A DNA stretch of 64,000 nt from a bacterium. GTDB lineage: Bacteria > Vulcanimicrobiota > Vulcanimicrobiia > Vulcanimicrobiales > Vulcanimicrobiaceae. A model generated the notes under the pieces. It saw only the letters and a list, made by a program, of their open reading frames with translations. It had not been told where the DNA came from and did not search any database. The position numbers and the translations under genes were made by a program. Below are positions 4,439 through 40,561 of this stretch, piece after piece. The stretch's first letter is position 1. Every line of letters begins with the position of its first letter. The DNA is taken from positions 248,001 through 312,000 of the forward strand of contig JAJYFL010000001.1 in the NCBI GenBank assembly GCA_021790935.1, written 5' to 3'.

Positions 4439-4858
4439 ATGGCCGTTCGGCTGGCGGCTTTCAAGCCGACGGCGACGGTCGCCGCGCCCAAGGCGACGCT
4501 TCGCGTTGCGGTTGCCGATACCGATCGGTCGCGCGAACGCGGGCTGATGGGCGTCGCCGTATTGCCGGCGCACGCGGGCATGGTCTTCGTTTTCGATGCG
4601 GATGGGCCGGTCCAATTCTGGATGAAGAACACGCTGATTCCACTCGACATGGTCTTCGTGAGCGCGCACGGTACGGTGCGCTCGGTTGCGTCCTGGGTTC
4701 CGACCGTGCCCCCCACGACCCCCGACGACCGGATCCCGCGCCGCGATGGGGTAGGGAAGTACGTCATCGAACTCAACGCCGGCGAAGCCGCTAGAGACGG
4801 CATCGTGCCGGGCGCGAAGATCGGCGGAATCACGCGCTTAACTCCGCCAGCCTCCTAG
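4439..4858 (+). CDS. DUF192 family protein
   Basis: 139 residues. DUF192 proteins are small, often exported all-beta proteins of unclear function, commonly found as stand-alone genes in bacteria and archaea. The family signature is plain: RSRERGLMGV near the start of the domain, then FWMKNTLIPLDMVFV near residue 60 and the PRRDGVGKYVIELNAG stretch near the end. The ATG at 4439 is 10 bases after polA; no better start lies upstream in frame. No clear signal peptide is present, which is unusual as many relatives are lipoproteins or secreted. The last codons (RLTPPAS and stop) coincide with one arm of a palindromic repeat also found at 16.8 kb, so the native C-terminus may have been altered by that element. 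Confidence 0.85.
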   Translation: MAVRLAAFKPTATVAAPKATLRVAVADTDRSRERGLMGVAVLPAHAGMVFVFDADGPVQFWMKNTLIPLDMVFVSAHGTVRSVASWVPTVPPTTPDDRIPRRDGVGKYVIELNAGEAARDGIVPGAKIGGITRLTPPAS

Positions 4859-15613: not shown

Positions 15614-16768
15614 TTAGTGTTCTTCGTACCAGAGCAGTCCGAGGCCCGCGAGCCCGAAGACGACGTTCGGCAGCCAGGACGCGAGGTACGGGTTCACGCG
15701 CCCGGTGCTGCCGAAGACCGCGGCCGCGTCGGACATCATGTAGTAAACGAAGAACGCCAGAATCGACAGCGCGGCGCCAAGCATCCAACCTTTGCTGCCG
15801 AAGCGGATGGCCAGCGGCAGCGCGATAAGCACGCCGACGAAGGCGGCAAACGGAAAGGCCGTCTTGTTCGCGAGGCTGACCTGCAGATTGCCGAGGGCTT
15901 CGCCGCCGACGCCCTGCGCCCGCAGCGCGTTCACCTCGTTCTTGAGCTGGGCGCTCGACATCGTGTAGGCGTCGCTGTTCGCCGAGCTCATGAACGCCGC
16001 GGCGGTCTCGCCCATCGGCAGCCCGATCGAGGCCTCCTTGGCGTGTACCTGCGAGGTCAGGTAGCCTTGCGCGTTGTAGCGCGTCTCGATGACATCGTGC
16101 AGCACGAGCGTCGCGCCGCGGACGGTCGCGCTCTTGGCCTGCAGCGTCTCGTTGAAATACCCGAACTTTCCGGGCTTGAAGATCTGTACCCCCACCATCG
16201 TCTTGCCGTCGGGCATGACTTGGCTCACGTAGAAGACGTCGTTGGTGTCGGGATCCTTGCGGAAGAACTGTGGCTCTATCGGCAAGGACGACGTATGGTA
16301 GACGATTTGATAGAACGTGCGCGTCGAGAGATCGACCGATTTCGGCGCGATGTACTCGTTCATCGCATACGAGAGAACGAATGCCAAGAAACCAAAGATC
16401 AGCGGCGTTAGGCAGATGCGCCACAACGGGACGCCGGAGGTGCGGACGGCGTTGATCTCGTTGTCGCCGACCAGCCGCCCCATGCCGAGCAGCGTCGCGA
16501 CGAGCGTCGCAAACGGGAACGCCATCGGGATCGATTGCGGTATCCGAAAGACGACGAAGCGCAGCACCAAGAAGAACGGCGCATTCTGCTGGATGATGTA
16601 CTTCGCCGCCAGAAAGAAGATGTTGAACGCCCAGAACAGGAAGAACGCGGCGAATGCAAACAGAAACGGACCGATGAACGCGCGCAGGATATACGCGTCG
16701 AGAATCGGGAGCCGCAGGCGAGGCAGCGATACGAACGGCGCGCGTTGCCTTCCAGAGAGCGACGCCAT
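15614..16768 (-). CDS. LptF/LptG family LPS export permease
   Basis: 384 residues. Membrane half of the LptB2FG exporter that extracts lipopolysaccharide from the inner membrane. Two or three transmembrane helices at about 25-130 (LRAFIGPFLFAFAAFFLFW), a periplasmic jelly-roll domain (about 150-270), then three more helices at about 305-380. Typical family residues are seen in IPMAFPFATLVATLLGMGRL and NEINAVRTSGVPLWRI. Only one such permease lies in the window, so F and G cannot be told apart. It precedes lptD by 4 bases. Confidence 0.9.
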   Translation of the reverse strand: MASLSGRQRAPFVSLPRLRLPILDAYILRAFIGPFLFAFAAFFLFWAFNIFFLAAKYIIQQNAPFFLVLRFVVFRIPQSIPMAFPFATLVATLLGMGRLVGDNEINAVRTSGVPLWRICLTPLIFGFLAFVLSYAMNEYIAPKSVDLSTRTFYQIVYHTSSLPIEPQFFRKDPDTNDVFYVSQVMPDGKTMVGVQIFKPGKFGYFNETLQAKSATVRGATLVLHDVIETRYNAQGYLTSQVHAKEASIGLPMGETAAAFMSSANSDAYTMSSAQLKNEVNALRAQGVGGEALGNLQVSLANKTAFPFAAFVGVLIALPLAIRFGSKGWMLGAALSILAFFVYYMMSDAAAVFGSTGRVNPYLASWLPNVVFGLAGLGLLWYEEH

Positions 16769-16772
16769 AGGC

Positions 16773-16898
16773 TAGGAGGCTGTCGGAGTTAAGCCCGTTT
16801 CCATCTTTGGGCCGCCTTTTGCCCGAATACTTCGTTGCTCGTCTCCAGACAAAATTCGGCGCCAAATCTGAAAACGGCTCAACTCCGACAGCCTCCTA
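16773..16898. repeat. 126-bp imperfect palindrome (MITE-like hairpin element)
   Basis: The left end TAGGAGGCTGTCGGAGTTAA and the right end TTAACTCCGACAGCCTCCTA-like sequence (actually CAACTCCGACAGCCTCCTA) form 28-base arms with 3 mismatches. The pairing continues inwards with gaps (CCGTTTCCATCTTTGG against CCGTTTTCAGATTTGG), so nearly the whole element can fold into one long hairpin. It fills the gap between the transglycosylase and lptF/G, and a solitary arm occurs at 4836-4859. This is the architecture of a non-autonomous transposon derivative or ERIC-like dispersed repeat; it carries no frame of its own. Confidence 0.75.
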
Positions 16899-16904
16899 CC
16901 GGTC

Positions 16905-17378
16905 TCAGTAGTTTCTGTAGGCGTCGAGCACGCGCATGACGTACGCGCGCGTTTCGGCGAAGGGCGGAACGCCGTGGTACCGGTCTACGGCTCCCGGCCC
17001 GGCGTTGTATGCCGCGACCGCCAGCTTCACGTTGTTGCCGTAGCGAGCCAGGAGTGCGTGAAGGTACCGCGTGCCGCAATCGACGTTCTCTCGCGCGTCG
17101 AAGGGGTTGTCCAGGCCGCACGCCGCGGCGGTACCGGGCATCAGTTGCATCAGGCCTTCCGCGCCGGCCGAGCTGATGGCGCTCGGGTCGCCGGCAGATT
17201 CGGTCATTACGACGGCGTTGACCAAGCCCGCCGGTACGCCGTCGCGGGAGGAGGCGGCACCGACCAGCCGGGCAATCTCTTGGGGGGCGAGCGCGTGCGG
17301 GGCATAGGGCAGGTAGCCCGCACCCCCGCATCCGCAGAGTAGGCTCAAGAACGCCACCGTGCCCAGCAGCCTTTTCAT
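16905..17378 (-). CDS. Lytic transglycosylase lipoprotein (SLT domain)
   Basis: 157 residues. It cleaves the MurNAc-GlcNAc bond of peptidoglycan from an outer-membrane anchor. Type II signal peptide MKRLLGTVAFLSLLCGC, with lipid Cys at about 15. The SLT domain shows VVMTESAGDPSAISSAGAEG, in which the Glu (about 60) is catalytic, followed by GLMQLMPGTA and AVAAYNAGPGAVDRY, all diagnostic of the Slt70/MltC-E group. Its length is only the minimal catalytic core. It ends 6 bases before the palindromic repeat and is divergent from the TonB receptor gene. Confidence 0.93.
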   Translation of the reverse strand: MKRLLGTVAFLSLLCGCGGAGYLPYAPHALAPQEIARLVGAASSRDGVPAGLVNAVVMTESAGDPSAISSAGAEGLMQLMPGTAAACGLDNPFDARENVDCGTRYLHALLARYGNNVKLAVAAYNAGPGAVDRYHGVPPFAETRAYVMRVLDAYRNY

Positions 17379-38635: not shown

Positions 38636-39630
38636 GCGTCGCCGCCGACGCCTCAGAGAGCCTCCTCGCCGCGACCGACTGCGAAGCGCTCCGCGCGCTC
38701 TGCGGCGATCGCGTGCGTTTCCGCGAACCCATCGCTGCGTACACCTCGTGGAAGATCGGCGGCCCCGCCGATGCGTGTATCACGCTCGAAGATCGGGCGC
38801 AGCTCGCGGACGTCATGCGGTTCTGCCTGCGCCGCGGCGTGCCGTGGTTCGTTCTCGGGAGCGGCAGCAATCTGCTCGTCGGCGACGGCGGGATTCGCGG
38901 GCTCGTGCTTCGCCTCGCGGGAAGCTTTGCCGAGATCGAGGTGGCGCTGGAAGACGAATGCGTCGTGGTGCGCGCGGGCTCGTCGGCCTCCATGCCGCTT
39001 CTGACGGCCAAGGCCGCTTCGTTCGGCGCGCTCGGCGTCGATTCGCTCGCGGGCATCCCCGGTACCGTCGGCGGATCGCTGCGCATGAATGCGGGGACCG
39101 ATCGAGAGATCGGCGATTTCGCGCGCGAAGTCTGGGTCCAGTCGCCGGCCAAGCCCGATCCGCACCTCGCGAACGTCCGCTTCGGCTACCGGCATACGAC
39201 GCTGGGCGCCGATGCGATCGTCTCGCGCGTCACGCTCTGCTTCGAGCGGGGCGACGAAGCGGCGGTGCGCGCTCGGATGCACGAGCGGCTCGTACGCCGC
39301 AAAGATACGCAGCCGATCGCGCAGCCCAACGCCGGATCGTGCTTTCGCAATCCGGAAGGCGACAAGGCGGCGCGCCTGATCGAAGCCGTGGGCGCTAAGG
39401 GGTGGCGTGAGGGCGGGGCCGAAGTCTCGGCTTTGCACGCCAACTTCATCAACAATCTCGGGGATGCGACCGCCGAAGACGTAGCGATACTGCTGGCGCG
39501 CATGCGGCGAGCGGTCTACGATCGCTTCGGCGTGGAGTTGGTGCTCGAAGTGCACCTAGTCGGCACATTCATCTCTGCAGAACGCTCTGCGGCGAGGCTC
39601 ACAACGTTGGTTCGCGATGAAAATTCCTAG
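38632..39630 (+). CDS. murB: UDP-N-acetylenolpyruvoylglucosamine reductase MurB
   Basis: 332 residues from GTG. Reduces UDP-GlcNAc-enolpyruvate to UDP-MurNAc using FAD and NADPH. FAD-binding signatures are TSWKIGGPADACI (about 42), LGSGSNLLVGDGGIRGLV (about 77) and LAGIPGTVGGSLRMNAG (about 140). The catalytic Ser lies in NAGSCFRNPEGDKAARLIE (about 235), the pattern of the type II enzymes. The C-terminus overlaps ddl by 14 bases. Confidence 0.96.
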   Translation: MSVAADASESLLAATDCEALRALCGDRVRFREPIAAYTSWKIGGPADACITLEDRAQLADVMRFCLRRGVPWFVLGSGSNLLVGDGGIRGLVLRLAGSFAEIEVALEDECVVVRAGSSASMPLLTAKAASFGALGVDSLAGIPGTVGGSLRMNAGTDREIGDFAREVWVQSPAKPDPHLANVRFGYRHTTLGADAIVSRVTLCFERGDEAAVRARMHERLVRRKDTQPIAQPNAGSCFRNPEGDKAARLIEAVGAKGWREGGAEVSALHANFINNLGDATAEDVAILLARMRRAVYDRFGVELVLEVHLVGTFISAERSAARLTTLVRDENS

Positions 39631-40561
39631 GAGACCGAGGGTCGCCGTCGTGATGGGCGGCGGCAGTTCCGAGCGCGAGATCTCGATTCTTACAGGCTCG
39701 GGCGTGATGCGCGCGCTCCAGACGCTCGGCTACGAGGCGCGGTCGCTGGATTACGACGCGAACTTCGTCGATGCGATACGCGCCATCGATCCGGACGTCG
39801 TCTTCAACGCGCTGCACGGAGCTGGCGGAGAAGACGGCCAGATCCAAGGCATGCTCGACTACTTCGGCATCCCGTACACCGGAAGTGGCGTCGAGTCGTC
39901 GGCCCTTGCCATGGACAAGCATCTCACCAAGAAATTGCTCGCGGCCGAAGGGCTCCCGACCGCCGCCTGGGATCTCTTCGATCTCTCCGGCGGCACGTTG
40001 CCGCTGCTGCCCGGATCGCTCGATCTGCCGCTGGTGTTGAAGCCGCGGTTTGAAGGGAGCGCGAAGGGCATCTCGATCGTGCGCACGCACGAGGCTTGGA
40101 CGCACGCCGTACTCGAAACCGCGCGGCACTATACCGAGGTGCTGGCGGAAGAGTACGTTGCCGGCCGGGAGTACACGTGCGCCGTCTTCGGCGAGGATGC
40201 ACTTCCCGTCGTCGAGATCGTGCCGCTCAAAGACGAGTTTTATTCATACGATGCAAAGTATGCGGAGGGAGGCAGCACGCACATCGTACCCGCGCAGATC
40301 GACGAGGACCTGGCCGCGCGGATTCAGATGCTCGCGCTCTCGCTGCACCGTCTGGTCGGGTTGCGCGACTACTCGCGCACGGATTTCATCGTGAGCAAGG
40401 AAGGCCGCCCCTACGTGCTCGAGATAAACTCGCTGCCCGGACTTACGCCGACGAGCCTCTTTCCGGACGCATGCGCCGCGCTCGGCATCGGCTACGAAGC
40501 GATCGTCGACCGGCTGATCGGCTACGCGCTGGCGCGCGGAGCGGCGGGGGTTTCGGCATGA
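39617..40561 (+). CDS. ddl: D-alanine--D-alanine ligase
   Basis: 314 residues. ATP-grasp enzyme supplying the D-Ala-D-Ala used by MurF. VVMGGGSSEREISILTGSGV at the N-terminus, FNALHGAGGEDGQIQGML (about 63), AMDKHLTKKLL, VLKPRFEGSAKGISIV (about 143), and the metal-binding end EINSLPGLTPTSLFP. Within the 14-base overlap with murB the reading frames differ. ATGA overlap with hisB downstream. Confidence 0.96.
   Translation: MKIPRRPRVAVVMGGGSSEREISILTGSGVMRALQTLGYEARSLDYDANFVDAIRAIDPDVVFNALHGAGGEDGQIQGMLDYFGIPYTGSGVESSALAMDKHLTKKLLAAEGLPTAAWDLFDLSGGTLPLLPGSLDLPLVLKPRFEGSAKGISIVRTHEAWTHAVLETARHYTEVLAEEYVAGREYTCAVFGEDALPVVEIVPLKDEFYSYDAKYAEGGSTHIVPAQIDEDLAARIQMLALSLHRLVGLRDYSRTDFIVSKEGRPYVLEINSLPGLTPTSLFPDACAALGIGYEAIVDRLIGYALARGAAGVSA

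Follow-up and report, generated by a model that had tools for sequence, protein, structure and literature searches.

A 126-bp palindrome lies between two genes of an uncultured bacterium, and its arms and fold raise the question of what kind of element it is, whether it moves, and what would move it. We analysed it within a window of 64,000 nucleotides (positions 248001-312000 of contig C33, G000:C33:248001-312000; contigs of G000 are cited below as C and a number), which is part of an assembly of 2,645,631 bp in 33 contigs. Our preferred answer, to which we give a probability of roughly 75%, is a non-autonomous MITE-like element that is moved in trans, most likely by a transposase of the IS5 family, and that inserts at TA with a preference for CTAG. 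Copies of the repeat occupy dozens of sites in this bacterium and its relatives, and it may be a small mobile element carrying a structured module.

Structure and position of the window element

An earlier note on this DNA had given the palindrome's sequence and coordinates, both of which are correct, and had described arms of 28 bases with 3 mismatches, which our count reproduced (Table 1). The element starts with TAGGAGGCTGTCGGAGTT and finishes with the exact reverse complement of this sequence, such that the outer 18 bp are fully complementary, and at up to 3 mismatches TAGGAGGCTGTCGGAGTT occurs 3 times in the window against 0.02 expected. The claim that the element folds along nearly its whole length also held, with a fold energy of -61.6 kcal/mol compared with -31.4 ± 3.4 for 200 shuffled sequences, none of which equalled it (z = -8.9 when folded as RNA, -8.8 when folded as DNA). 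Its position is intergenic, as the note had said, between an SLT-domain gene and a gene of the LptF/LptG type. An Rfam search of the window gave no matches, and a search of four element loci at E values up to 1 returned only Ysr224, at 22 bits against a gathering threshold of 70 and outside the element. No match to the element was found in plasmids and phages by distant blastn or in viral contigs by exact pattern.

Table 1. Positions in the window of the element, its neighbours and related sites
Feature	Position	Strand	Basis or remark
Internally deleted 126-bp copy of a ~166-bp mobile palindrome	16773..16898	+	TA to TA
Left terminal inverted repeat, TAGGAGGCTGTCGGAGTT	16773..16790	+	End-matches in genome and window
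Right terminal inverted repeat, fully complementary to the left one	16881..16898	-	End-matches in genome and window
Duplicated TA target, left	16773..16774	.	Single TA at the empty site in G002
Duplicated TA target, right	16897..16898	.	Single TA at the empty site in G002
LptF/LptG-type permease gene	15614..16768	-	Start 5 bp from the element
SLT-domain (transglycosylase) gene	16905..17378	-	Upstream of the LptF/LptG-type gene, same direction
Solitary arm (truncated copy) supplying the DUF192 stop codon	4832..4857	-	Matches the element end
DUF192 gene ending in the solitary arm	4439..4858	+	ORF
Unoccupied CTAG site; G002 carries a ~100-bp short copy (L134)	39625..39633	.	Flanks a few bases different

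Copies in the source genome and their target sites

The earlier note had staked its reading, a dispersed family, on there being further copies in the genome, and these are present: at up to 2 mismatches, G000 contains 82 end-matches (38 forward and 44 reverse), whereas the reversed control sequence gives 0 and 0. This 2.65-Mb genome has the element at 39 places, of which 37 hold both ends and two are incomplete, and a further 16 matches are single-ended, some of them covering little beyond the 17-base end. Copy lengths cluster at about 126, 166 and 220 bp; the usual length of the family is ~166 bp, the long form has ~220 bp and the 126-bp copy is internally deleted. Among the 35 copies of at least 121 bp, 32 have TA at both ends, and these TA-flanked copies are preceded by C in 28 cases and followed by G in 27. 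CTAG is scarce in the stretches examined (220 occurrences vs 862 expected from base composition).

Copies were found at the ends of genes more often than other CTAG sites. By counts that rest on a crude codon-usage gene caller, 15/38 copies coincide with TAG stop codons compared with 21/125 other CTAG sites (Fisher p = 0.006), and only 6/38 lie inside genes compared with 73/125. Because the unit starts with G after its TA, insertion into a TAG stop preserves the stop, and copies can therefore survive at gene ends. This restoration of TAG also explains why, as the earlier note had reported, a solitary arm supplies the stop codon of a DUF192 gene. The arm is real, with 24 of 26 bases equal to the element end (by eye), and the DUF192 ORF uses the arm's terminal TAG as its stop codon. 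Single arms of this kind are best read as remnants of larger deletions, since the orthologue of one of them (C10:113926) in the related genome G002 consists of ~90 bases of the left part of the element, without the right end. Separately, at two other single-ended matches in G000, C4:12992 (L031) and C9:252422 (L069), an AGGAGG and a downstream TTG resemble a ribosome-binding site and start codon that would serve the following ORF (by eye); the G001 version of the C4 gene, next to L031, appears by eye to begin with ATG instead.

Empty sites and length changes among relatives

Empty sites in related strains, which the earlier note had suggested looking for, were found in G002. Both G001 and G002 belong to the same genus as G000, with mostly 92-96% aligned identity to it and 87% in one stretch. 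At the window locus, where G002 is 92-93% identical, G002 reads CCATAGAC-TA-GCGGGCTTAG with a single TA, whereas in G000 and G001 a TA stands on either side of the element. The right flanks of G001 and G002 are identical here over 25 bases, and the G000 flanks differ by a few substitutions. A second G000 copy, C17:10963, likewise has an empty site in G002. The empty site shows that insertion of the element duplicates its TA target. There are also copies in relatives without an element at the matching place in G000, namely at 39.63 kb of the window, at C9:251341 and on C33 near 158.2 kb; the flanks differ somewhat at all three, so that these places may represent losses in G000.

Across the 262 kb of G000 covered by the site comparison, which was limited by contig edges, eight of the listed relatives' copies have a G000 copy at the same site: the window copy, C1:46220, C8:83524, C9:65215, C11:103874, C11:140247, C33:157084 and C33:330855, the last with a damaged right end in G001. 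The listing from which these come, for G001, G002 and G079, has 49 rows, some of them loose or overlapping. The G001 orthologue of the window copy has ~220 bp and includes the apical hairpin, a part that is missing in G000, and length changes at the same site also occur at C33:157084, C1:46220, C11:140247 and C9:65215. To judge from this comparison, the window copy is a deletion derivative without the apical domain. The family thus has the properties by which MITEs are recognised: it is short, of a transposase-less size, has terminal inverted repeats, duplicates its target, and is dispersed and polymorphic between close relatives.

Subfamilies with different arms and a common core

A class-wide search found relatives of the element in 32 of 117 genomes, several of them matching in the core only. 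The 69 diverse loci comprise 57 with delimited arms, 8 undelimited ones and 4 running off an edge. Delimited copies are 164-169 bp long in 47/57 cases, a range that is partly imposed because the search for ends reached no further than 14 bases from the expected place, and 18 of 20 further loci were delimited at 165-167 bp. At least four arm sets occur in the genus and its relatives, TAGGAGGCTGTCGGAGTT (subfamily i, that of the window), TAGGAGTTTGTCTGACTTGAGC (ii), TAGCAGGTTGCGGAAAAACCC (iii) and TAGTGTGCTGAACC (iv), and others occur elsewhere. The type-iii end has 12 forward and 12 reverse matches in G000 and is matched in 17 of the 99 genomes of the bacterial family.

In 13 representatives, hand-picked for differing arms, the arm 30-mers have an identity of 0.49 compared with 0.45 when shuffled, whereas the apical 51-mers have an identity of 0.88 (minimum 0.77); within each representative, 19-22 of the 22 terminal bases pair. 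MITEs are usually recognised by their conserved ends, with an interior that is free to decay. The pattern between subfamilies here reverses the usual one and is unusual: the arms are nearly unrelated, and the core is conserved and covaries. The conserved apical domain consists of GUUGC, UCnUC, GGUCAC, a hairpin that is usually C(UNCG)G-closed, CUCCCUC, n'UC and GCGCC, and in 43 distinct aligned rows its apical hexamer is CTACGG in 32 and CTGCGG and CTCCGG in 1 each. A covariance model of the inner region matched 63 of 149 genomes of the phylum, of which 60 belong to the same family and 3 to a second family of the order; the copy numbers that it gives are lower bounds, with at most 29 candidates scored per genome. 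Order-level matches to this model in G025, G027 and G028 have best E values of 5.5e-14 to 1.1e-8.

The long form contains an extra 52-nt segment that exists in three versions of equal length (in G000, G001 and G002; e.g. L019, L119 and L128). Their stems differ and the loop motifs AGGAT and GGA recur (by eye), and on this basis the three versions look like structural homologues.

Covariation in the inner fold

We aligned 46 of the 57 delimited copies and one G000 copy with MAFFT (alignment A1), adjusting the ends by hand in seven (L204, L212, L218, L219, L230, L231 and L243); a second alignment, A2, holds 45 of these 47 rows and omits L243 and L094. Minimum-energy folds of the 47 copies form a single long hairpin in 34 cases and are branched inside in 13, including the G000 copy L081. 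In the inner region, 89.6% of cells pair in a structure taken from one member (L213). Covariation was counted on this inner region only, because in A1 the outer arms of GTGT-type copies are displaced by one base. Among 43 distinct rows, changes on both sides are seen in 18/27 pairs. The covariation score is 0.237, compared with 0.095 ± 0.007 in 500 shuffles, none as high, and with at most 0.130 for slid partners; these shuffle controls ignore relatedness, and related sequences inflate such scores. The count excludes pair 32-65 (A-U 21, U-A 17, G-C 2), with which it rises to 19/28 and 0.262 but becomes partly circular, as the pair was added after its covariation had been noticed. In the apical domain, the variability of paired columns does not significantly exceed that of unpaired columns (permutation p = 0.20).

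The fold is likely to be under selection, but the case falls short of proof, because relatedness inflates the scores and the apical stems show no significant excess of variation over the loops. Covariation in the inner fold suggests selection on the pairing and on the core, acting on RNA or on single-strand DNA. We tentatively consider, at somewhat less than even odds, that these repeats are miniature mobile elements of one superfamily, which keep a long covarying hairpin and its apical domain while exchanging arms among several nearly unrelated sequences; the fold, as RNA or as single-stranded DNA, would be selected and possibly recognised. This reading is weakened by the 13 of 47 folds that are branched. 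Which strand is selected was also approached from AC and GU mismatches (138 and 48), a difference that came largely from position 18, whose state members of a subfamily have in common; at positions 1-17, three groups that are not independent sum to 80 vs 48, and the approach was dropped.

An element that is primarily a host-useful RNA structure selected at gene ends, such as an ERIC-like signal for mRNA processing or stability or a terminator, would account for the gene-end location as well as for the covariation and the frequent C(UNCG)G loop, and has precedents in ERIC and NEMIS (as portrayed in excerpts of PMC2229807). We nevertheless regard it as unlikely, given that sites are polymorphic between close relatives, that Rfam gives no match, and that at 19 tandem gene pairs the element lies in mixed orientation (7 sense, 12 antisense).

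Matching of the two arms within a copy

The arms of single copies match each other better than they match the arms of other copies. In 35 G000 copies, arm mismatches total 52, compared with 88.9 when arms are shuffled among copies (2000 shuffles, minimum 74), and in relatives they total 48 vs 77.4 (minimum 62). The latter figures come from 36 strictly two-ended copies. A wider set of 49 relatives' copies includes 10 that are loosely delimited; L285, for instance, is a ~90-base left part with a chance right end (5 mismatches). Some single copies have changes in both arms (e.g. C33:55670 and C9:53294), and the copy at C11:140247 has TAGATG/CATCTA in G001 and TAGGAG/CTCCTA in G000.

Such paired changes would be expected if recognition depended on the fold and not on the end sequence, with arms drifting or being rewritten by template switching or hairpin-templated copying and with the hairpin and core read by the machinery. 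The near absence of arm similarity between subfamilies, despite the pairing of their terminal bases, the conserved apical domain and the partly imposed uniformity of length point the same way as the arm-matching counts. Template switching is able to produce paired arm changes (PMC8794818, in excerpt), and subfamily inheritance, conversion between copies or selection would fit them as well. Ends are, however, conserved across genera within a subfamily, and those of subfamily iii equal the ends of an ordinary IS5 element (below). Moreover, 35 G000 copies depart from the end consensus 47 times, in one arm only in 25 cases, identically in both arms in 21 and differently in both in 1; some of the 21 recur in several copies, perhaps by inheritance. 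The G001 orthologue of the window copy also retains unrepaired arm mismatches. Taken together, we think it improbable that the fold takes the place of the end sequence, if slightly less so than a primarily host-serving role, and return to recognition of the ends by a transposase.

Candidate mobilisers

The earlier note had supposed a dispersed MITE or ERIC-like family, with a transposase elsewhere in the genome as its possible mover. The copies and the empty site with its TA duplication bear out the mobile part, and an insertion sequence with the same ends exists for a sister subfamily, whereas for the window's own subfamily none was found in G000 or in the 98 other genomes searched. The former is a 1,329-bp IS5-family element in G043 (L371), from another genus of the same bacterial family, with TAGCAGGTTGCGGAAAAA at one end; this end is identical to that of subfamily iii over 18 bases and the opposite end over 16, and its transposase is an uninterrupted ORF of 361 amino acids (NF033581, 273.5 bits; cut-off 140). 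Ends of this kind recur among IS5-family insertion sequences of the bacterial family. Another such element, in G097 (L373), has the end TAGGAGTTTGCTGAAAAACG, in which ~10 of 18 bases are as in subfamily i (by eye). G010, which belongs to the same bacterial family and is assembled in a single contig, contains a frameshifted IS5-family element with ends TAACAGGGTGCTGAAAAAG and at least 21 copies of another (L379-L399), all of whose ends are within 3 mismatches of TAGCAGGCCCGTGAAAAA... and TAGCAGGCTGATGAAAAA....

At E values up to 1e-15, an IS5-like transposase is present in 7 of 99 genomes and was not detected in G000, G001 or G002. No pairs of subfamily-i ends 1-3 kb apart occur among the matches listed, and among the PF01609 loci of 8 genomes, allowing up to 4 mismatches, none has ends of subfamily i. 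An IS5-type transposase acting in trans would still best explain how the family moves, because sister subfamily iii has the 18 terminal bases of an IS5-family element; for the window's subfamily we infer the partner, since no IS5 element found here has ends resembling those of subfamily i. In this model, the terminal inverted repeats would be recognised by a transposase provided in trans, most likely from the IS5 family, which would insert the unit at TA, preferably within cTAg, with the TA duplication that the empty site shows. The intact unit would be a long hairpin of ~166 bp with the conserved apical domain, or of ~220 bp with the extra domain; the window copy would have lost its apical domain by internal deletion, and single arms would be what larger deletions left.

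IS630 prefers CTAG as its target. Derivation from an IS630/Tc1-mariner element, as for RUP of pneumococcus, would fit this preference and the TA duplication, but we consider it very unlikely, as the PF13358 matches in 25 genomes include four G001 loci and one G000 fragment, and none of these five has such ends in the ~3-kb stretches inspected. A REP/REPIN system with a RAYT was also rejected: Y1_Tnp matches are no more than partial in G000 and absent from G001 and G002, and G079 has two full-profile matches. The only possible relic partner in G000 is a degraded IS1182-type ORF (L400), below the cut-off, with a subfamily-ii-like end (17/21) ~120 nt downstream at L400 3214-3234 (C20:175213-175233). 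Several transposase genes and fragments (L148, L168, L173, L176 and L180) also lie together on C24, a contig of 49 kb.

Relation to known repeats

We found no description of this element family in the titles and abstract openings of the open-access papers searched. IS5-family-derived MITEs are similar in being short, dispersed and polymorphic, with terminal inverted repeats and target duplication, and in having ends in common with an insertion sequence of autonomous type (here for sister subfamily iii only). In contrast to them, the present family combines several arm sets with a core that is conserved and covaries. Should this core have a function, one genus would offer a natural test bed, with its empty sites, deletion derivatives and several sets of arms, for asking what an interior contributes to mobility or to the host, and by what means long palindromes maintain the match between their arms.

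Among other short repeats, ERIC, NEMIS and RUP are also described in PMC10969869. RUP of Streptococcus pneumoniae has a TA target and has been proposed to be mobilised in trans by an insertion sequence with matching ends, to which our reading is alike; RUP is tied to IS630-Spn1 (PMC2229807, in excerpt), whereas the end match here is to an IS5-family element. The ERIC or RU-1 repeats of enterobacteria, with 127 bp, TA termini and a stable long stem-loop in the transcript (PMC2229807, in excerpt), are alike by description as short palindromes and occur in a different host group. The Correia or NEMIS repeats of Neisseria also have TA termini and come in short and long forms, which differ by an internal segment of ~50 bp (PMC2229807, in excerpt); they are unlike the present family, in which the extra segment has 52 nt and three equal-length versions.
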